Shown here piece after piece: positions 5,366 through 49,425 of a stretch of DNA of 64,000 bases. Source of the stretch: Erinaceus europaeus (taxonomy: Eukaryota; Chordata; Mammalia; Eulipotyphla; Erinaceidae); the NCBI RefSeq assembly GCF_950295315.1, contig NC_080165.1, forward strand, positions 9,780,723 to 9,844,722, read 5' to 3'. The notes under the pieces were generated by a model. It was not told where the DNA came from. It worked only from the letters and a program-made list of their open reading frames with translations, and did no database searches. Each line of letters starts with the position of its first letter. Position 1 is the stretch's first letter. The translations under genes and the position numbers were made by a program.

Positions 5366-5459
5366 ATTGGAGGAATTATGCTCCCCCACTTGGGTTTATA
5401 CTACAAAGCAATAATGACTTAGAAAGTATGACACTGCAATGAAAATGGACACCTGAGTC

Positions 5460-5571
5460 AATGGAGCAGACTCACATACCCAGATACAATGGAGCAGACT
5501 CACATACCCAGATACAATGGAGCAGACTCACATACCCAGATACAATGGAGCAGACTCACATACCCAGATAC
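5460..5571. repeat. 28-bp minisatellite, four identical copies
   Basis: Four head-to-tail 28-base units beginning AATGGAGCAGACTCACATAC (5,460, 5,488, 5,516, 5,544), with no difference between them. They lie in a strongly decayed L1 ORF2 remnant, so the expansion is much younger than its host. Confidence 0.95.
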
Positions 5572-5948
5572 AAGCTTGGACATTTATGGCACTTAATATA
5601 GAACATGGGTGCCAATACCACTCATGGGGTCCAGGGAGAAAGTTTCTCTCAACAAACAGTGTTGGGAAAACTGGACATAAGACTGAATTTGTGTGACAGT
5701 TAAAAAAGACAAACAATCAAAAAAGAAACAAACAAAACAACATGGGATGAAAGTGAGACAGGGTTTGGTGCACTATACAAAAACAAAGCACTCTGGTAAT
5801 GGTGAGGAGGGAATCTTAAGTTGTGGAAGAGAGTGTTTTGCAGAAACTCCGCACTTGGAGTTAGAGAACTGCTATAACTTACTAACTTTCCAATAAAGGG
5901 AGGAAGAAAAGAATGAAATTGGAAATGGTGTCATCCTCTTCATTTTTT

Positions 5949-6234
5949 AAAAAATATTTAATTTAATTTATTTATTCCTTTTTGTTGCCCTTGTTGTTTT
6001 ATTGTTGTAGTTATTATTGTTGTTGTCATCGTTGTTGGATAGGACAGAGAGAAATGGAGAGAGGAGGGGAAGACAGAGAGGAGGAGAGAAAGATAGACAC
6101 CTGCAGACCTGCTTCACCGCCTGTGAAGCGACTCCCCTGCAGGTGGGGAGCCGGGGTTCGAACCGGGATCCTTATGCCGGTCCTTGTGCTTTACGCCACC
6201 TGCGCTTAACCCGCTGCGCTACAGCCTGACTCCC
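5949..6234 (-). repeat. SINE type A, full length, with TSD
   Basis: Reverse copy with intact box B ('gttcgaacc' on +) and CAACAA-complement block. The direct repeat CCTCTTCATTTTTT is exact at 5,935-5,948 and 6,235-6,248. Confidence 0.92.
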
Positions 6235-6248
6235 CCTCTTCATTTTTT

Positions 6249-6415
6249 TAGAAGAGTTTGAGAAAGTTTTCTGCTAATTTGTTAGGATTCTTCATTGTAA
6301 CCATCATGTTCTTTCATTTTTAGATCTTTTGGCTAGGCCTTATTAATTCAATATCCTATCAGCTGTCTGGAGTTTCTTCAATTTCTTCTTGAATCAGTCT
6401 TTGTTAGTTATATCA
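6249..6415 (-). mobile_element. Antisense L1 ORF2 fragment
   Basis: Reads as reverse-complement L1 ORF2 ('ttagatcttttggctagg', 'gaatcagtctttgttagtta'). Decayed; no frame. Confidence 0.5.
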
Positions 6416-11123: not shown

Positions 11124-11300
11124 TAACGATACGAGAATCCGGCATGAAGCCCAGCCAGTCTATCTTGGCGTTACTCTCGATCGCACCCTGTCATTTCACG
11201 AACATCTCATAAAAAACTGCAGCAAAGGTGGGCGCGAGGAATAACATCATTGCAAGACTGGCCAGCTCCTCATGGGGCGCGAGCGCTTCCACACTACGAT
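11124..11300 (+). mobile_element. Vingi non-LTR retrotransposon fragment running into an assembly gap
   Basis: Sense sequence matches the reverse-transcriptase region of the Vingi copy at 15.3-16.3 kb, from 'acgatacgagaatc' (corresponding to about 16,135 there) through 'cttggcgttactct' and 'gcaagactggccagctcctc' to 'cttccacactacgat', where the gap begins. One extra A in the run near 11,212 shifts the frame. The element is 5' truncated; how much lies in the gap is unknown. Confidence 0.9.
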
Positions 11301-11500
11301 NNNNNNNNNNNNNNNNNNNNNNNNNNNNNNNNNNNNNNNNNNNNNNNNNNNNNNNNNNNNNNNNNNNNNNNNNNNNNNNNNNNNNNNNNNNNNNNNNNNN
11401 NNNNNNNNNNNNNNNNNNNNNNNNNNNNNNNNNNNNNNNNNNNNNNNNNNNNNNNNNNNNNNNNNNNNNNNNNNNNNNNNNNNNNNNNNNNNNNNNNNNN
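11301..11500. other. Assembly gap, 200 N
   Basis: Exactly 200 unresolved bases, a round number that suggests a placeholder. The left edge cuts a Vingi copy, the likely cause of the assembly failure. Confidence 0.99.
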
Positions 11501-15094: not shown

Positions 15095-17565
15095 TTGGGG
15101 GGGTGGTGTGTGGGTACAGAGTAGCAGCAGTTGTGTCTCTCTCCTCTCCTTGGTCAACTAGGAATGACAAAGAAGATCACCTGAGAACACAAGAAAGACT
15201 AGGATTACTTTGGTAATCTACCAAGTCATGGGTCAGTGGACACATTCGTGGTTCATGGACAGAGAGCAGCCTAAGGAGAGATTCCTGGGGCTTTTCTTCT
15301 TCTAGCATTTGCCCTTCTTCCGTAGCCAGTCAACAGCGTCAGGTTGAGCCTGATGTAAAGTTTCGAGACCTCCTTTGAATCTGGAGAGGTGGCAGTCATT
15401 GACTATGTGGGTCATAGTCTGTCTGGAGCCTCAGGGGCAGTTCGGGTCATCTCTGGCTCCCCAGCGATGGAACATAGTGGTGCACTGGCCATGGCCTGTT
15501 TGATAGCGATTGAGGAGGGCCCAATCATAACGTGCTAGGTCAAAGACGGGTTGACGCTTGCAGGGATCTGTGATGAGGTGTTTGTTCTTGACCTCAGCTG
15601 ACTGCCAGCTCTGTTTCCAAGAGTCTGGAAGAGAAAAGTTCAGTGTAGGCGTAGGGGACCAGATTGGGTGACGAGACGTCAAGCATTGGACAGGGTGGGC
15701 GAAGATATCCGCGTATATTGGCAGGTCCGGTCGAGCGTAGACGTGGGAAATGAACTTAGATGATGCCGCATCCCGACGAATATCTGGTGGGGCGATGTTG
15801 CTAAGAACTGGCAGCCATGGAACCGGGGTGGAACGGATGGTTCCAGAAATTATCCTCATGGAGGACTATAATTTGGAATCGACCAAGTGGACATGGTGGC
15901 TACGGAACAATACTGGGGCACAGTATTCTGTAGTGGAATAACATAATGCCAGAGACGATGATCGTAGTGTGGAAGCGCTCGCGCCCCATGAGGAGCTGGC
16001 CAGTCTTGCAATGATGTTATTCCTCACGCCCACCTTTGCTGCAGTTTTTATGAGATGTTTGTGAAATGACAGAGTGCGATGGAGAGTAACGCCAAGATAG
16101 ACTAGCTGGGCTTCATGCCAGATTCTCGTATCGCCAAGCTGCACATTAAGCTCACGCGAGGCCGAGGCATGGTGTAGATGGAAAACAGATGATAGCGTTT
16201 TTGCAGTGCTAGGGATTAGTCACCATTTTTTACAGTAATCAGATATCAGAGACATGTCTTTCGTGAGTGTTTCCTCGAGGATGTCGAACTTGGATGCCTG
16301 AGTTGCACAGCAGATGTCATCGGCGTAGATGAAAGTTTGTATCTCTTTGGGAGAAACTGGTAATAGTCCAACAGTTTAGTTGAGTACCACCTCTAATCTG
16401 ATTTTGCTCAACAAATAAACTGCTGACAGGAGGAGAGGATCCCCTAAGTCTCACAAATGCAACTGTGAGTCTCCATTGCTACTATCCCTTGGAGGCTGGA
16501 GCAGCAGCAGGGAGGCCCTGTGCTGACATTGGGGGCAGAGAACTGATCAGGCAATTCAGGAGAAGACATACACTCGAGTGGTCTGGATGTGAGGCTGTAT
16601 AGTGGGAGCCATTCCACATTGTTCTCCTAATGAATATGGAGACATGTTGAATAATTACCTCAGAACCCACAGAGTAAAAACAGGAAATTTGTTTAGAAAT
16701 TCACAGGGCCAAGGACTGCTGCCCAGCTTGGTTCTGGCTACTGTTAGAGAAGCTTATTTGCGTCTGGGGCTTCTGGCCCTTGGGGCATTGGAGTCTCTTT
16801 GTATAACCACTGTGCTATCTCTCCCCACCCTGTTTTATCTCTAGGTTAGGAGTGAGTAATTAAGCTAAAAAAATCTACTTATAGTTTAAAAGCCTGCAGG
16901 CTCTGTTAGCCTACAGGGAAAGTAAAGAACAAAAGAGGGTTTAACAGCCACTGTGCTTCATCTGAAGGATTGAGACAACATTGAAACAACTGTTCATTCC
17001 CACAACTGTGAACTCTTTAAATACCTTACTTAGACACAAGTCAATCCCGGCAAGTATGATTAGTGGATTGAATAGTACTGAGATAGGAACCTCATAATGC
17101 ACCATATACAATGGTTAAACCAAGAAGAAACATTGGAGACATGACCCAGGACAAAAGCCCAGACACCCCAAAGGCAGAAACACATAACAATGAGGACAGG
17201 ATCCAAACACTAATTGAGGCATTAATCAGAGAAGTGAGGAAAGCATTCAAAAGTAATATCATCAAGAATGGGGAAACAGCAAATGAGACTCTAAAAGAAA
17301 ATACGACCTTCAGGTAATTAGAGAGATGAAAGCTGAAATAGTTGACCTAAGAGCACAACTAGTTGAACAAGCTAATATAGAGTAACAAAATAGCTGAGCT
17401 ACAGAAAACAACAGTGTGGAGAGAGAATAGAATATGTGAGGCAGAAAAAAAGTTTTAGCAAGATTAAGGATGAATTAGAGAAAATTAAGAAATAAGTAAG
17501 AGATCTCAAAAGAGATATTAAGAGATACTGAAAACAGCAACAGAGACATATGGGATGACTTCAAA
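15095..17565 (+). pseudogene. L1 5'UTR and start of ORF1, carrying nested Vingi
   Basis: Shares an extended block with the L1 at 47.6-48.9 kb: a non-coding 5'UTR ('gatcacctga' at 15,177, 'ctaaggagagattcctgg', 'tcacagggcc', 'acaactgtgaactctttaaa'), then ORF1 beginning at ATG 17,111. ORF1 is open for 68 codons (MVKPRRN start, identical in the other copy), then broken. It encodes the N-terminal, charged part of the L1 RNA-binding protein. The copy ends near 17,565, where a SINE begins and L1 sequence does not resume. A Vingi element replaces the 5'UTR segment at 15,293-16,338. A G-rich run at 15,099 may mark the true 5' end. Confidence 0.82.
15293..16338 (-). pseudogene. Vingi retrotransposon, 3' half of the ORF, three stop codons
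   Basis: The minus strand encodes the C-terminal part of a non-LTR reverse transcriptase in one continuous frame from about 16,333 to 15,310. It opens with the catalytic palm motif FIYADD (16,333-16,316), continues through 'VYLGVTL' and 'SSWGASASTL' (thumb region), then the connection region and a C-terminal Cys/His motif. Three in-frame stops break it: TGA at 16,220-16,222, TAG at 15,866-15,868 (Tyr in the 43.5-kb copy) and TGA at about 15,431-15,433 (Cys in the 43.5-kb copy). Upstream RT motifs and the endonuclease are absent (5' truncation). No RNase H domain is visible, as expected for Vingi. It is nested in an L1 5'UTR; a clean TSD was not found. Confidence 0.92.
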
Positions 17566-43504: not shown

Positions 43505-43515
43505 AGTCATATGGA

Positions 43516-44275
43516 ATCGAATCGAATGCAGCAAAGGTGGGCACGAGGAATCACATCATTGCAAGACTGGCCAGCTCCTCATGGGGCGCGAGTGCTTCCA
43601 CACTACGATCATCATCTCTGGCATTATGCTATTCCACTGCAGAATACTGTGCCCCAGGATGGTTCCGTAGCCCCCATGTCCACCTAGTCGATTCCAAATT
43701 ATATTCCTCCATGAGGATCATTTCTGGAACCATCCGTTCCACCCCGGTTCCATGGCTGCCAGTTCTTAGCAACATCGCCCCGCCAGATATTCGTCGGGAT
43801 GTGGCATCATCTAAGTTCATTTCCCACGTCTACGCTCGACCAGACCTGCCAATATACACGGATATCTTTGCCCACTCTGTCCAACGCTGGACGTCTCGTC
43901 ACCCAATCTGGTCCCCTACACCTATACTGAACTTCTCTGTTCCAGACTCTTGGAAACAGAGTTGGCAGTCAGCCGAGGTAAAGAACAAACACCTCATCAC
44001 AGTCCCCTGCAAGCGTCCACCCGGCTTTGACCTAGCACGTTATGATTGGGCCCTCCTCAATCGCTATCGAACAGGCTATGGCCGGTGCGCCGCTATGTTC
44101 CATCACTGGGGAGCCAGAGACGACCCGAACTGCCCCTGCGGCTACAGACAGACTATGACCCACATAGTCAACAACTGCCACCTCTCCAGATTCAAAGGAG
44201 GTCTCGAAACTTGACATCAGGCTCAACCTGATGCTGTTGACTGGCTACGGAAGAAGGGCAAACACTAGAAGGAGA
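43516..44275 (+). mobile_element. Vingi retrotransposon, 5'-truncated, exact TSD
   Basis: A 760-bp insertion framed by AGTCATATGGA at 43,505-43,515 and 44,276-44,286, exact over 11 bases. Contains the last third of the Vingi ORF and a very short 3' tail ending 'aaacactagaaggaga'. There is no poly-A, unlike L1 or the SINEs here. The frame joins in-phase to about 36 codons of host flank upstream, which is chance. Confidence 0.95.
43526..44214 (+). pseudogene. Vingi reverse transcriptase, C-terminal third, early stop
   Basis: About 230 codons are open (the surrounding frame, from 43,408, is 268 codons, the longest in the window). It would encode the thumb and C-terminal part of a non-LTR reverse transcriptase, which copies element RNA at the nicked target. 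Visible: 'SSWGASASTLRSSSLALCYS', 'RIISGTIRSTPVPWLPVLSN', and a C-x1-C-x7-H-x4-C zinc-knuckle-like motif (residues 242, 244, 252, 257 of that frame). The catalytic YADD part lies upstream and is lost. TGA at 44,212 replaces a Leu codon (TTA in the 15.3-kb copy); the frame would otherwise run to a TAG about 48 bases on. Family assigned from memory of hedgehog Vingi-1; no search was possible. Confidence 0.9.
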
Positions 44276-44286
44276 AGTCATATGGA

Positions 44287-44734: not shown

Positions 44735-45003
44735 TGTATTTTATTTTATTTCCCCTTTTGTTGCCCTTGTTGTAGCCTTGTTGTGGTTATTATTGTTGTT
44801 GTTGATGTCGTTCACTGTTGGATAGGACAGAGAGAAATGGAGAGAGGAGGGGAAGACAGATAGGGGGAGAGAAAGATAGACACCCTCAGACCTGCTTCAC
44901 TGCCTGTGAAGCGACTCCCCTGTAGGGGAGCCAGGTGCTCTAATTGGGATCCTTACGCCCGTCCCGCACCTCTTGCGCTTAACCCACTGCCCTACCACCC
45001 AAC
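44735..45003 (-). repeat. SINE type A, full length
   Basis: Reverse copy, T-rich end to 'accacccaaccc'. Directly followed by a reverse L1 3' end. Confidence 0.88.
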
Positions 45004-47400: not shown

Positions 47401-47595
47401 ATAAATACACATAAACATATGTAATATAATAAAATCTCAAACATATTTGACAGAAATATACAGAAGTTAAAATTATAAAGGTAAAGATATGTGTGTACCA
47501 TTAAAAATAATAAATATAGAACATGTATTAATAGGATCATATTATAAACATTCAGTAGGTTTAATGTGGCCATAAAAAATGTATATATTTTCAAA

Positions 47596-48467
47596 GATCA
47601 CCTGAGGCTTCCACAAGAGGAGACTGGGACTACTTTGGGAGCCCACCAAGTCACCAGTGAGTAAAAACACATGTGGCTCATGGACAGAGAGGAGCCTAAG
47701 GAGAGAGACTCCTGGGGCTAAAGCCCGTATCTACTCCCAAGTGGCTGGTAACAGTCCAGCAGTTTTCCAGTTGAGAAGCCACCTCCAGCCTGTTTCACCA
47801 ACAAAGACACTGCTGAAAGAAGGAGAAAACTCCCCTAAGACTTACCAAATGCAACTGGGAGTCTCCATTTTCTACTGCCCTCAGAGGCTGGAGCAGCAGG
47901 GGGGAGTACCTGTGCTGACATTTGGAGCAGAAAACTGACCAGGAGAAAATCTATACCTCAGTGTTCTAGCAGTGGGGCTGTATAGTGGGAACCTTTGCAC
48001 ATTGTCCTCCTGATGATAACATGGTGCATAATTGCCTCAGAACCTACAGACTATAAATGGGACTCATTTATAAATTCACAGGGCCCAGCTATGCTACCTG
48101 GCTTGGCATAAAAGCCGAATTGAGCCTAGAGGTTTGGATCCTTGGGGTGTAGGAGTCTCTTTGCCTAACCACTGTGATATTTCCCCCCACCCCGTTTTAT
48201 CTCTTGGTCAGGAGTGAGTGATTAACATAAAAAAATCTACTTATAGGTAGAAATCCCTCAGGCTCCCATAGCCTACAGGGAAGAAAAAGAATAAAAAGGG
48301 CTTTAACAGCCACTGTGCTTCAATTCAGGGATTGAGATAACATTGAAACAACTGCAATTTCCACAACTGTGAACTCTTTAAGAACTTTATTTAGACACAA
48401 GTCATTCCAGGCAAGAGTGACCAATGGACTGAAGAGTGCTGAGAGAAGGAACTCGTAACACACTATA
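47596..48467 (+). promoter_or_regulatory. L1 5'UTR
   Basis: Non-coding 870-bp leader preceding an L1 ORF1, shared with 15,170-17,110 once the Vingi there is set aside. Mammalian L1 5'UTRs hold the internal promoter; I see no defined element. Bases about 48,130-48,195 match the head of SINE type C in reverse (see findings). Confidence 0.78.
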
Positions 48468-49425
48468 ATGATGGTTAAACCAAGAAGAAACATTGGAGAA
48501 AAGTACCAGAATAAAGGTCCAGGTAAAAGCCCCCCCAAAGGTAGAAACAAGAAGAATGAGATCAGCATCCAAACTCTAGTTGGGGAATTAGTTATAGGAG
48601 TGAGGAATGAGTCAGAAATAATTGTCGTCAGAAATGCAAAAACAACAAATAAGACTCTGAAAGACAGCACTAGCTATCTCAAGGTAATTAGAGAGCTGAA
48701 AGCTGAAATAGCTGGGCTAGCTGAACAATCTACTAAAGTATCAGAACAGGGTAACAAAATCGCTGAGCTACAGAAAACAACAGAAGGGAGAACAGAAAAA
48801 ATGAGGCAGAAAACAGAATTGGCAAGATTGAGGATGAATTAGAGAAAACTAAGAGGTAAAAAATCTCAAAAAGAGATTAAAAGATACTGAAAACAACAAC
48901 AGAGACATATGGGATGACTTCAAAAGAAATAATATATGCATTATAGGCTTACCAGATGAAGAAAGAGAGGGAAGGGAAGAAAGGCTTCTACAGGGCATAA
49001 TAGATGAGAACTTCTCTGGTCTACACAACATCAAAGACATAAAGGTTCAAGAAGCCCAGAGGGTCCCAAACATAATTGATCCAGACTTAAAGACATGAAG
49101 ACACATCATATTTATAATGTGGAAAGGAATAAGGTTAAAGAAAGTATCCTGGAGGCTGCAGGAGAAAAACAAAGAGTCACTTACAGAGGAAAACCCATAA
49201 GATTAGCAGAAGATTTCTCCACACAAACACTTAAGGCCAGAAAATTATGACAAGGTATCTATTGAGTGCTCAAACAGAAAGGCTTTCAACTAAGACTACT
49301 GTATCCTGCTAGACTGTCATTCAGACTAGATGAAGGCATAAAAACCTTCTCAGAGAAGCAGCAGTTTAAAGAATCAACTATCACCAAGCTTGCCCTAAAA
49401 GAAGTTCTGAAAGTTCTCCTATAAA
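48468..49425 (+). pseudogene. L1 ORF1, broken
   Basis: ATG at 48,468 opens a 124-codon frame with the MVKPRRN start shared with 17,111. It is lysine/glutamate-rich with heptad-like spacing (coiled coil, residues about 65-120). After a frameshift, RRM-like sequence ('YALLAYQMKKEREGKKGF' region, about 48,940-49,090) and a C-terminal domain region (to about 49,420) follow with several stops. Intact ORF1 is roughly 300-plus residues in mammals. Function known for the family: trimeric RNA-binding chaperone. This copy cannot make it. Confidence 0.82.

Follow-up and report, generated by a model that had tools for sequence, protein, structure and literature searches.

The Vingi clade of non-LTR retrotransposons was reportedly defined by Kojima, Kapitonov and Jurka in 2011 as having no RNase H domain after the reverse transcriptase (RT), its RT being sister to that of Ingi. 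Ingi and I clade elements, whose RT is related to that of Vingi, carry RNase H. Among mammals, the 2011 study is said to have reported Vingi only in hedgehogs, and the original prediction for the DNA analysed here, which named hedgehogs as the only mammalian hosts, agrees with that report. However, human X12_LINE has been classified under Vingi (Kojima 2018, in PMC5753468), and the same source places Vingi in reptiles as well as in hedgehogs. Hedgehog Vingi has been counted among the older likely horizontal transfers, with families common to several species, and Vingi-1N3_EE is represented in Erinaceus by 311 copies that are less than 1% diverged (both PMC3183009).

Within the window, by which we mean the whole 64-kb stretch of DNA that was analysed, lies a fragment (copy 1). 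We regard it with high confidence as the dead remnant of a Vingi-type LINE copy that target-primed reverse transcription placed here and that has since decayed. The locus is made up of the following features.

43505 to 43515, forward strand: 5' copy of the target-site duplication (TSD), 11 bp, AGTCATATGGA, exact match
43516 to 43526, forward strand: filler ATCGAATCGAA between the TSD and copy 1, not Vingi, absent from copies 2 and 3
43527 to 44275, forward strand: copy 1, 749 bp of a non-LTR retrotransposon, very likely of Vingi type, truncated at its 5' end and holding the C-terminal part of the open reading frame (ORF)
44131 to 44178, forward strand: codons of a CxCx7Hx4C motif, conserved in the aligned homologues
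44212 to 44214, forward strand: premature in-frame stop TGA, 18 codons before the natural TAG
44266 to 44268, forward strand: natural ORF stop TAG, at the same place in copy 2
44269 to 44275, forward strand: the entire 3' UTR and tail, AAGGAGA, GAA-like, 7 nt after the natural stop
44276 to 44286, forward strand: 3' copy of the TSD, 11 bp, AGTCATATGGA, exact match

Copy 1 lies wholly downstream of YADD, the catalytic motif and everything before it being absent. Homology of the two other copies in the window to copy 1 begins at 43527, upstream of which both run on in different, element-coding sequence; because this coding sequence is missing in copy 1, we place the start of the element at 43527 and regard the preceding 11 bases as filler. 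The coding sequence had been described as framed by the TSD copies; it does lie between them, but the element begins at 43527 and not at 43516. A templated inverted origin of the filler was considered and rejected, its best match (GGAATCGA, the reverse complement of 43688 to 43695) being only 8 nt long, with about 0.2 such matches expected by chance by a hand estimate. The 3' end reads TAG-AAGGAGA and, as predicted, has no poly-A. The nearly open frame that had been described is an open stretch with protein homologues, but it is interrupted by the TGA at 44212 to 44214. Truncation and premature stop together indicate a dead copy, and no function is indicated for the fragment.

The ORF of copy 1 has 156 protein homologues at E ≤ 1e-3, with a best E of 5.9e-80, the top match being 54% identical across 99% of the query length; the search kept proteins of at most 1.75 times the query length, contig ends may cut proteins, and the 120 best of the 156 were listed. 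Several carry an RVT_1 domain upstream of the part that matches copy 1, which confirms the predicted RT C-terminal coding sequence. The residues of the CxCx7Hx4C motif are conserved in 65/74, 67/72, 68/79 and 70/74 of the aligned homologues (C, C, H and C, respectively), and zf-RVT falls below the cut-off over the motif region (E 0.12 in the homologue P0004, 0.0016 in the homologue P0036). At the 37 columns that are at least 90% conserved, copy 1 deviates once and copy 2 twice. The codon at 43552 encodes H in copy 1 and in the metagenome protein P0121, and N in copies 2 and 3 and in 79 of 93 homologues; the H is possibly a subfamily mark. Searches with the copy 1 piece matched no Pfam model and no solved structure in the PDB. 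Of two open pieces of copy 2 searched against Pfam, neither reached RVT_1, one giving a chance-level sub-cutoff RWP-RK (E 0.057) and the other nothing.

P0121 is a 582-residue protein from a 2072-base contig of an ENA metagenome, with RVT_1 at E 1.7e-32 and 94% identity to copy 1 (245 residues) and 93% to copy 2. At E ≤ 1 its only Pfam matches were RVT_1 and zf-CW, the latter below its cut-off, and RNase H models gave none. The 20 residues at its start correspond to the antisense strand of the element body, a pattern suggestive of a genomic copy with an inverted 5' end, so the contig is probably host genomic DNA inside the metagenome. We placed these sequences in a 66-row tree (the two copies and 64 of 213 listed proteins, P0121 being trimmed to its C-terminal 350 residues), built by a quick method with SH-aLRT support only and no bootstrap; its rows include no labelled Vingi or Ingi, and the Penaeus, Macrosiphum, Schistocerca, P0168 and Aphis rows were flagged for long branches. 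Copies 1 and 2 and P0121 form one group (SH-aLRT 100), which joins the environmental contig proteins P0122, P0123 and P0128 at SH-aLRT 93, below the program's mark of 95. The turtle row falls in a separate group (SH-aLRT 87) and the coelacanth row in no resolved group.

The remaining copies, and the site with which copy 2 can be compared, are as follows.

15293 to 16356, reverse strand: copy 2, 1064 bp, 93.5% identical to copy 1, reaching upstream past YADD and interrupted by three premature in-frame stops
47594 to 48262, forward strand: diverged paralogue of the repeat that hosts copy 2, 75-78% identity, acting as the empty site of copy 2
11127 to 11300, forward strand: copy 3, with a one-base frameshift, ending at a 200-N assembly gap (11301 to 11500)

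The original prediction held copy 1 to be the most consequential element in the window, a place that we would not give it, copy 2 being longer and containing YADD. Copies 1 and 2 are co-linear over 750 bp with zero indels and share their 3' end, the natural stop lying 9 nt from the end in copy 2 (tail AAGAAGAAA) and 7 nt from the end in copy 1. The bases directly after the 3' end are AG in both (2/2), which is only suggestive, from two cases, of pairing between the RNA end and the target. No TSD was found for copy 2; the longest common word (at least 6 nt was searched) is 7 nt and lies away from the junctions. The repeat common to 15173 to 16900 and 47594 to 48262 holds copy 2 at the first place and is empty at the second, where 25 bp (47720 to 47744) have no counterpart at the copy 2 junction. 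This would fit a 25-bp target deletion at the insertion of copy 2, or, given the divergence, one of the two repeats may instead have lost or gained sequence at a later time. The assembly gap at 11301 to 11500 may have arisen at or near a Vingi repeat.

The flanks of copy 1 support its being an insertion. AGTCATATGGA occurs exactly twice in the whole window, at the two TSD positions, and is extendable on neither side, which confirms the exact 11-bp TSD that had been predicted. The absence of a TSD around copy 2 would suit the alternative that the 11-bp repeat arose by chance and that the fragment was brought by segmental duplication, but the repeat adjoins the 3' end common to the two copies: its 3' copy begins where homology to copy 2 ends, the ungapped match reaching 44276, 1 base inside the TSD. 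Moreover, an exact 11-mer recurs 750-789 bp upstream (an interval of 40 bp) at only 8 of 62,490 window positions (about 1 in 8,000, ~1.3e-4), an exact common word of at least 11 was seen in 18 of 19,845 draws of random 35-bp pairs 700-819 bp apart, and neither the 227 bp before copy 1 nor the 331 bp from 44270 onward has a paralogue within the window at E ≤ 1e-3. We consider chance and duplication together extremely improbable. A different alternative accepts the insertion but makes copy 1 a non-autonomous Vingi-1N derivative, from an internal-deletion family, in place of a truncated autonomous copy. The young Vingi-1N3_EE copies of Erinaceus speak for such a source; against it stand the gap-free co-linearity with copy 2, the position of the start of copy 1, which adjoins the filler and the TSD and which copies 2 and 3 pass without a break, as 5' truncation would produce, and a tolerant search for the element 3' end across the window, which recovered copies 1 and 2 only. 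We judge this origin very unlikely. A TSD, 5' truncation and a common 3' end are all present in copy 1, as expected of a LINE inserted by target-primed reverse transcription, and copy 2 has the last two.

The family name is very likely Vingi, with indirect support from the lack of RNase H, the distribution of relatives, the reported clade definition and the literature. The evidence supports what had been predicted, a Vingi-type non-LTR insertion that has an 11-bp TSD and lacks poly-A. A neighbouring clade (Ingi, I or Jockey) might have supplied copy 1 instead, since the tree has no reference-labelled clades, the named arthropod relatives are 34-46% identical over 178-244 aligned residues, and a repeat table for Atelerix albiventris counts 4476 I-Jockey copies but has no row for Vingi (PMC12026660, whose main text never mentions Vingi). 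This we find unlikely, Vingi being the clade reported in hedgehogs (PMC5753468, PMC3183009). Ingi and I elements carry RNase H, whereas the ORF of copy 1 ends 29 residues past the final cysteine of the motif. Of the 120 listed homologues, 70 have this cysteine, and what follows it has a median of 30 and a maximum of 60 residues, a partial measure given the length limit of the search and the proteins that contig ends may cut. P0121 likewise matches RVT_1 and no RNase H model. The eight named relatives among the matches listed (coelacanth, turtle, grouper, beetle, two aphids, locust and prawn) accord with a clade of reptiles and hedgehogs that has relatives in other animals.

Between copies 1 and 2 there are 49 differences in 750 sites (K2P 0.069), and 29 in the 664 sites that lie outside CpG sites, so that half the pair distance gives a divergence of about 2-3.4% per copy. 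Under an assumed rate of 2.2e-9 per site per year (PMC12026660) and a single assumed source sequence, copy 1 would be roughly 10 My old without CpG sites and roughly 16 My old with them. The pN/pS between the copies is 0.52 (single-change codons only, with 3 two-change codons left out), so some of the differences may predate insertion, having arisen in source copies, and the age is uncertain to that extent. Over 245 residues compared three ways, private changes number 12 in copy 1 (including the stop), 14 in copy 2 and 2 in P0121, and 1 site differs in all three; we prefer these figures to an earlier polarisation against the 120 listed homologues, in which 27 changes were derived in copy 1 (12) or copy 2 (11) or were unassigned (4). 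Of 229 pairs drawn from 26 SINE places in the window, 3 equal or exceed the Vingi pair in identity and the median is 81%, so that, compared with these SINEs, the Vingi copies are young but not recent. The predicted recent activity of copy 1 is not supported, given its private changes, its divergence and its missing catalytic motif. Younger copies of the family do exist, namely P0121 and those of Vingi-1N3_EE as described in PMC3183009.

From these observations, we propose that copy 1 goes back to a Vingi-type LINE (Ingi-related, of the APE-RT type) and arose through target-primed reverse transcription. A protein encoded by the element itself, of which the window has no intact example, would have nicked the target before AGTC, and the cDNA would have been primed at the RNA 3' end just beyond the stop codon, from a short GAA-like tail and not from poly-A. 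Reverse transcription would then have halted early, the 5' end being joined through 11 bases of filler, in a genome that is presumably of hedgehog type. This would account for the TSD of 11 bp and for the dead fragment of 749 bp, which would have decayed since then for a time on the order of 10-16 My. Of all this, the TSD, the truncation point, the filler, the 3' end common to two copies, the stops and the relationship to the family are observed, whereas the nicking enzyme, the priming, the source of the filler and the host are inferred. We stress that a clean duplication is not universal, because copy 2 has no TSD.

Horizontal acquisition of the hedgehog-type Vingi lineage is conceivable, although we lean against it. 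The points that bear on it are the grouping with environmental proteins, the position of the turtle row elsewhere, and the number of copies in 64 kb, 3 against about 0.11 expected provided that the 4476 Atelerix I-Jockey copies are Vingi, as we suppose. Viral contigs were considered as a vector and set aside, one scan having given 7 pattern matches, none of them a relative.

Elsewhere in the window, an abundant SINE whose 3' part is rich in CT and in CAA (5939 to 6250 and 21 more matches, e.g. 44737 to 44995) resembles the hedgehog tRNA SINE, and 5459 to 5573 is a perfect 28-bp tandem repeat (4.1 copies, 100% identity). The ORF at 48459 to 48839 is presumably L1-like; a protein search with it returned 0 of 154 candidates at E ≤ 1e-3. 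The window gave no Rfam match at gathering cut-offs and no tRNA gene by ARAGORN (bacterial code).

As a single locus copy 1 matters little: it is a dead and unexceptional member of a family that was known from hedgehogs before, and no sign of present activity. What it adds, together with copy 2, is a definition of the family's ends (a 3' UTR of 7-9 nt, a GAA-like tail and AG immediately following each 3' end) and two different results of insertion, an 11-bp TSD with filler and a putative 25-bp target deletion, which could aid a Vingi retrotransposition assay or insertion markers for hedgehog phylogeny. Vingi-1_EE and Vingi-1_AAl, reportedly the hedgehog families of Kojima, Kapitonov and Jurka 2011, are like it in being RT-type LINEs without RNase H, with a compact 3' end, in a presumably hedgehog-type genome; copy 1, in contrast, is a 749-bp dead fragment, and the likeness is one of description and not of nucleotide comparison. 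The Vingi-1N families of Erinaceus share the family name and short copies, but copy 1 seems simply 5'-truncated rather than derived by internal deletion, and it has diverged further. Ingi and I clade LINEs have a related RT and an RNase H, the latter not seen here. P0121, at 94% protein identity over 245 residues, differs from copy 1 in its intact RT domain and its mere 2 private changes.
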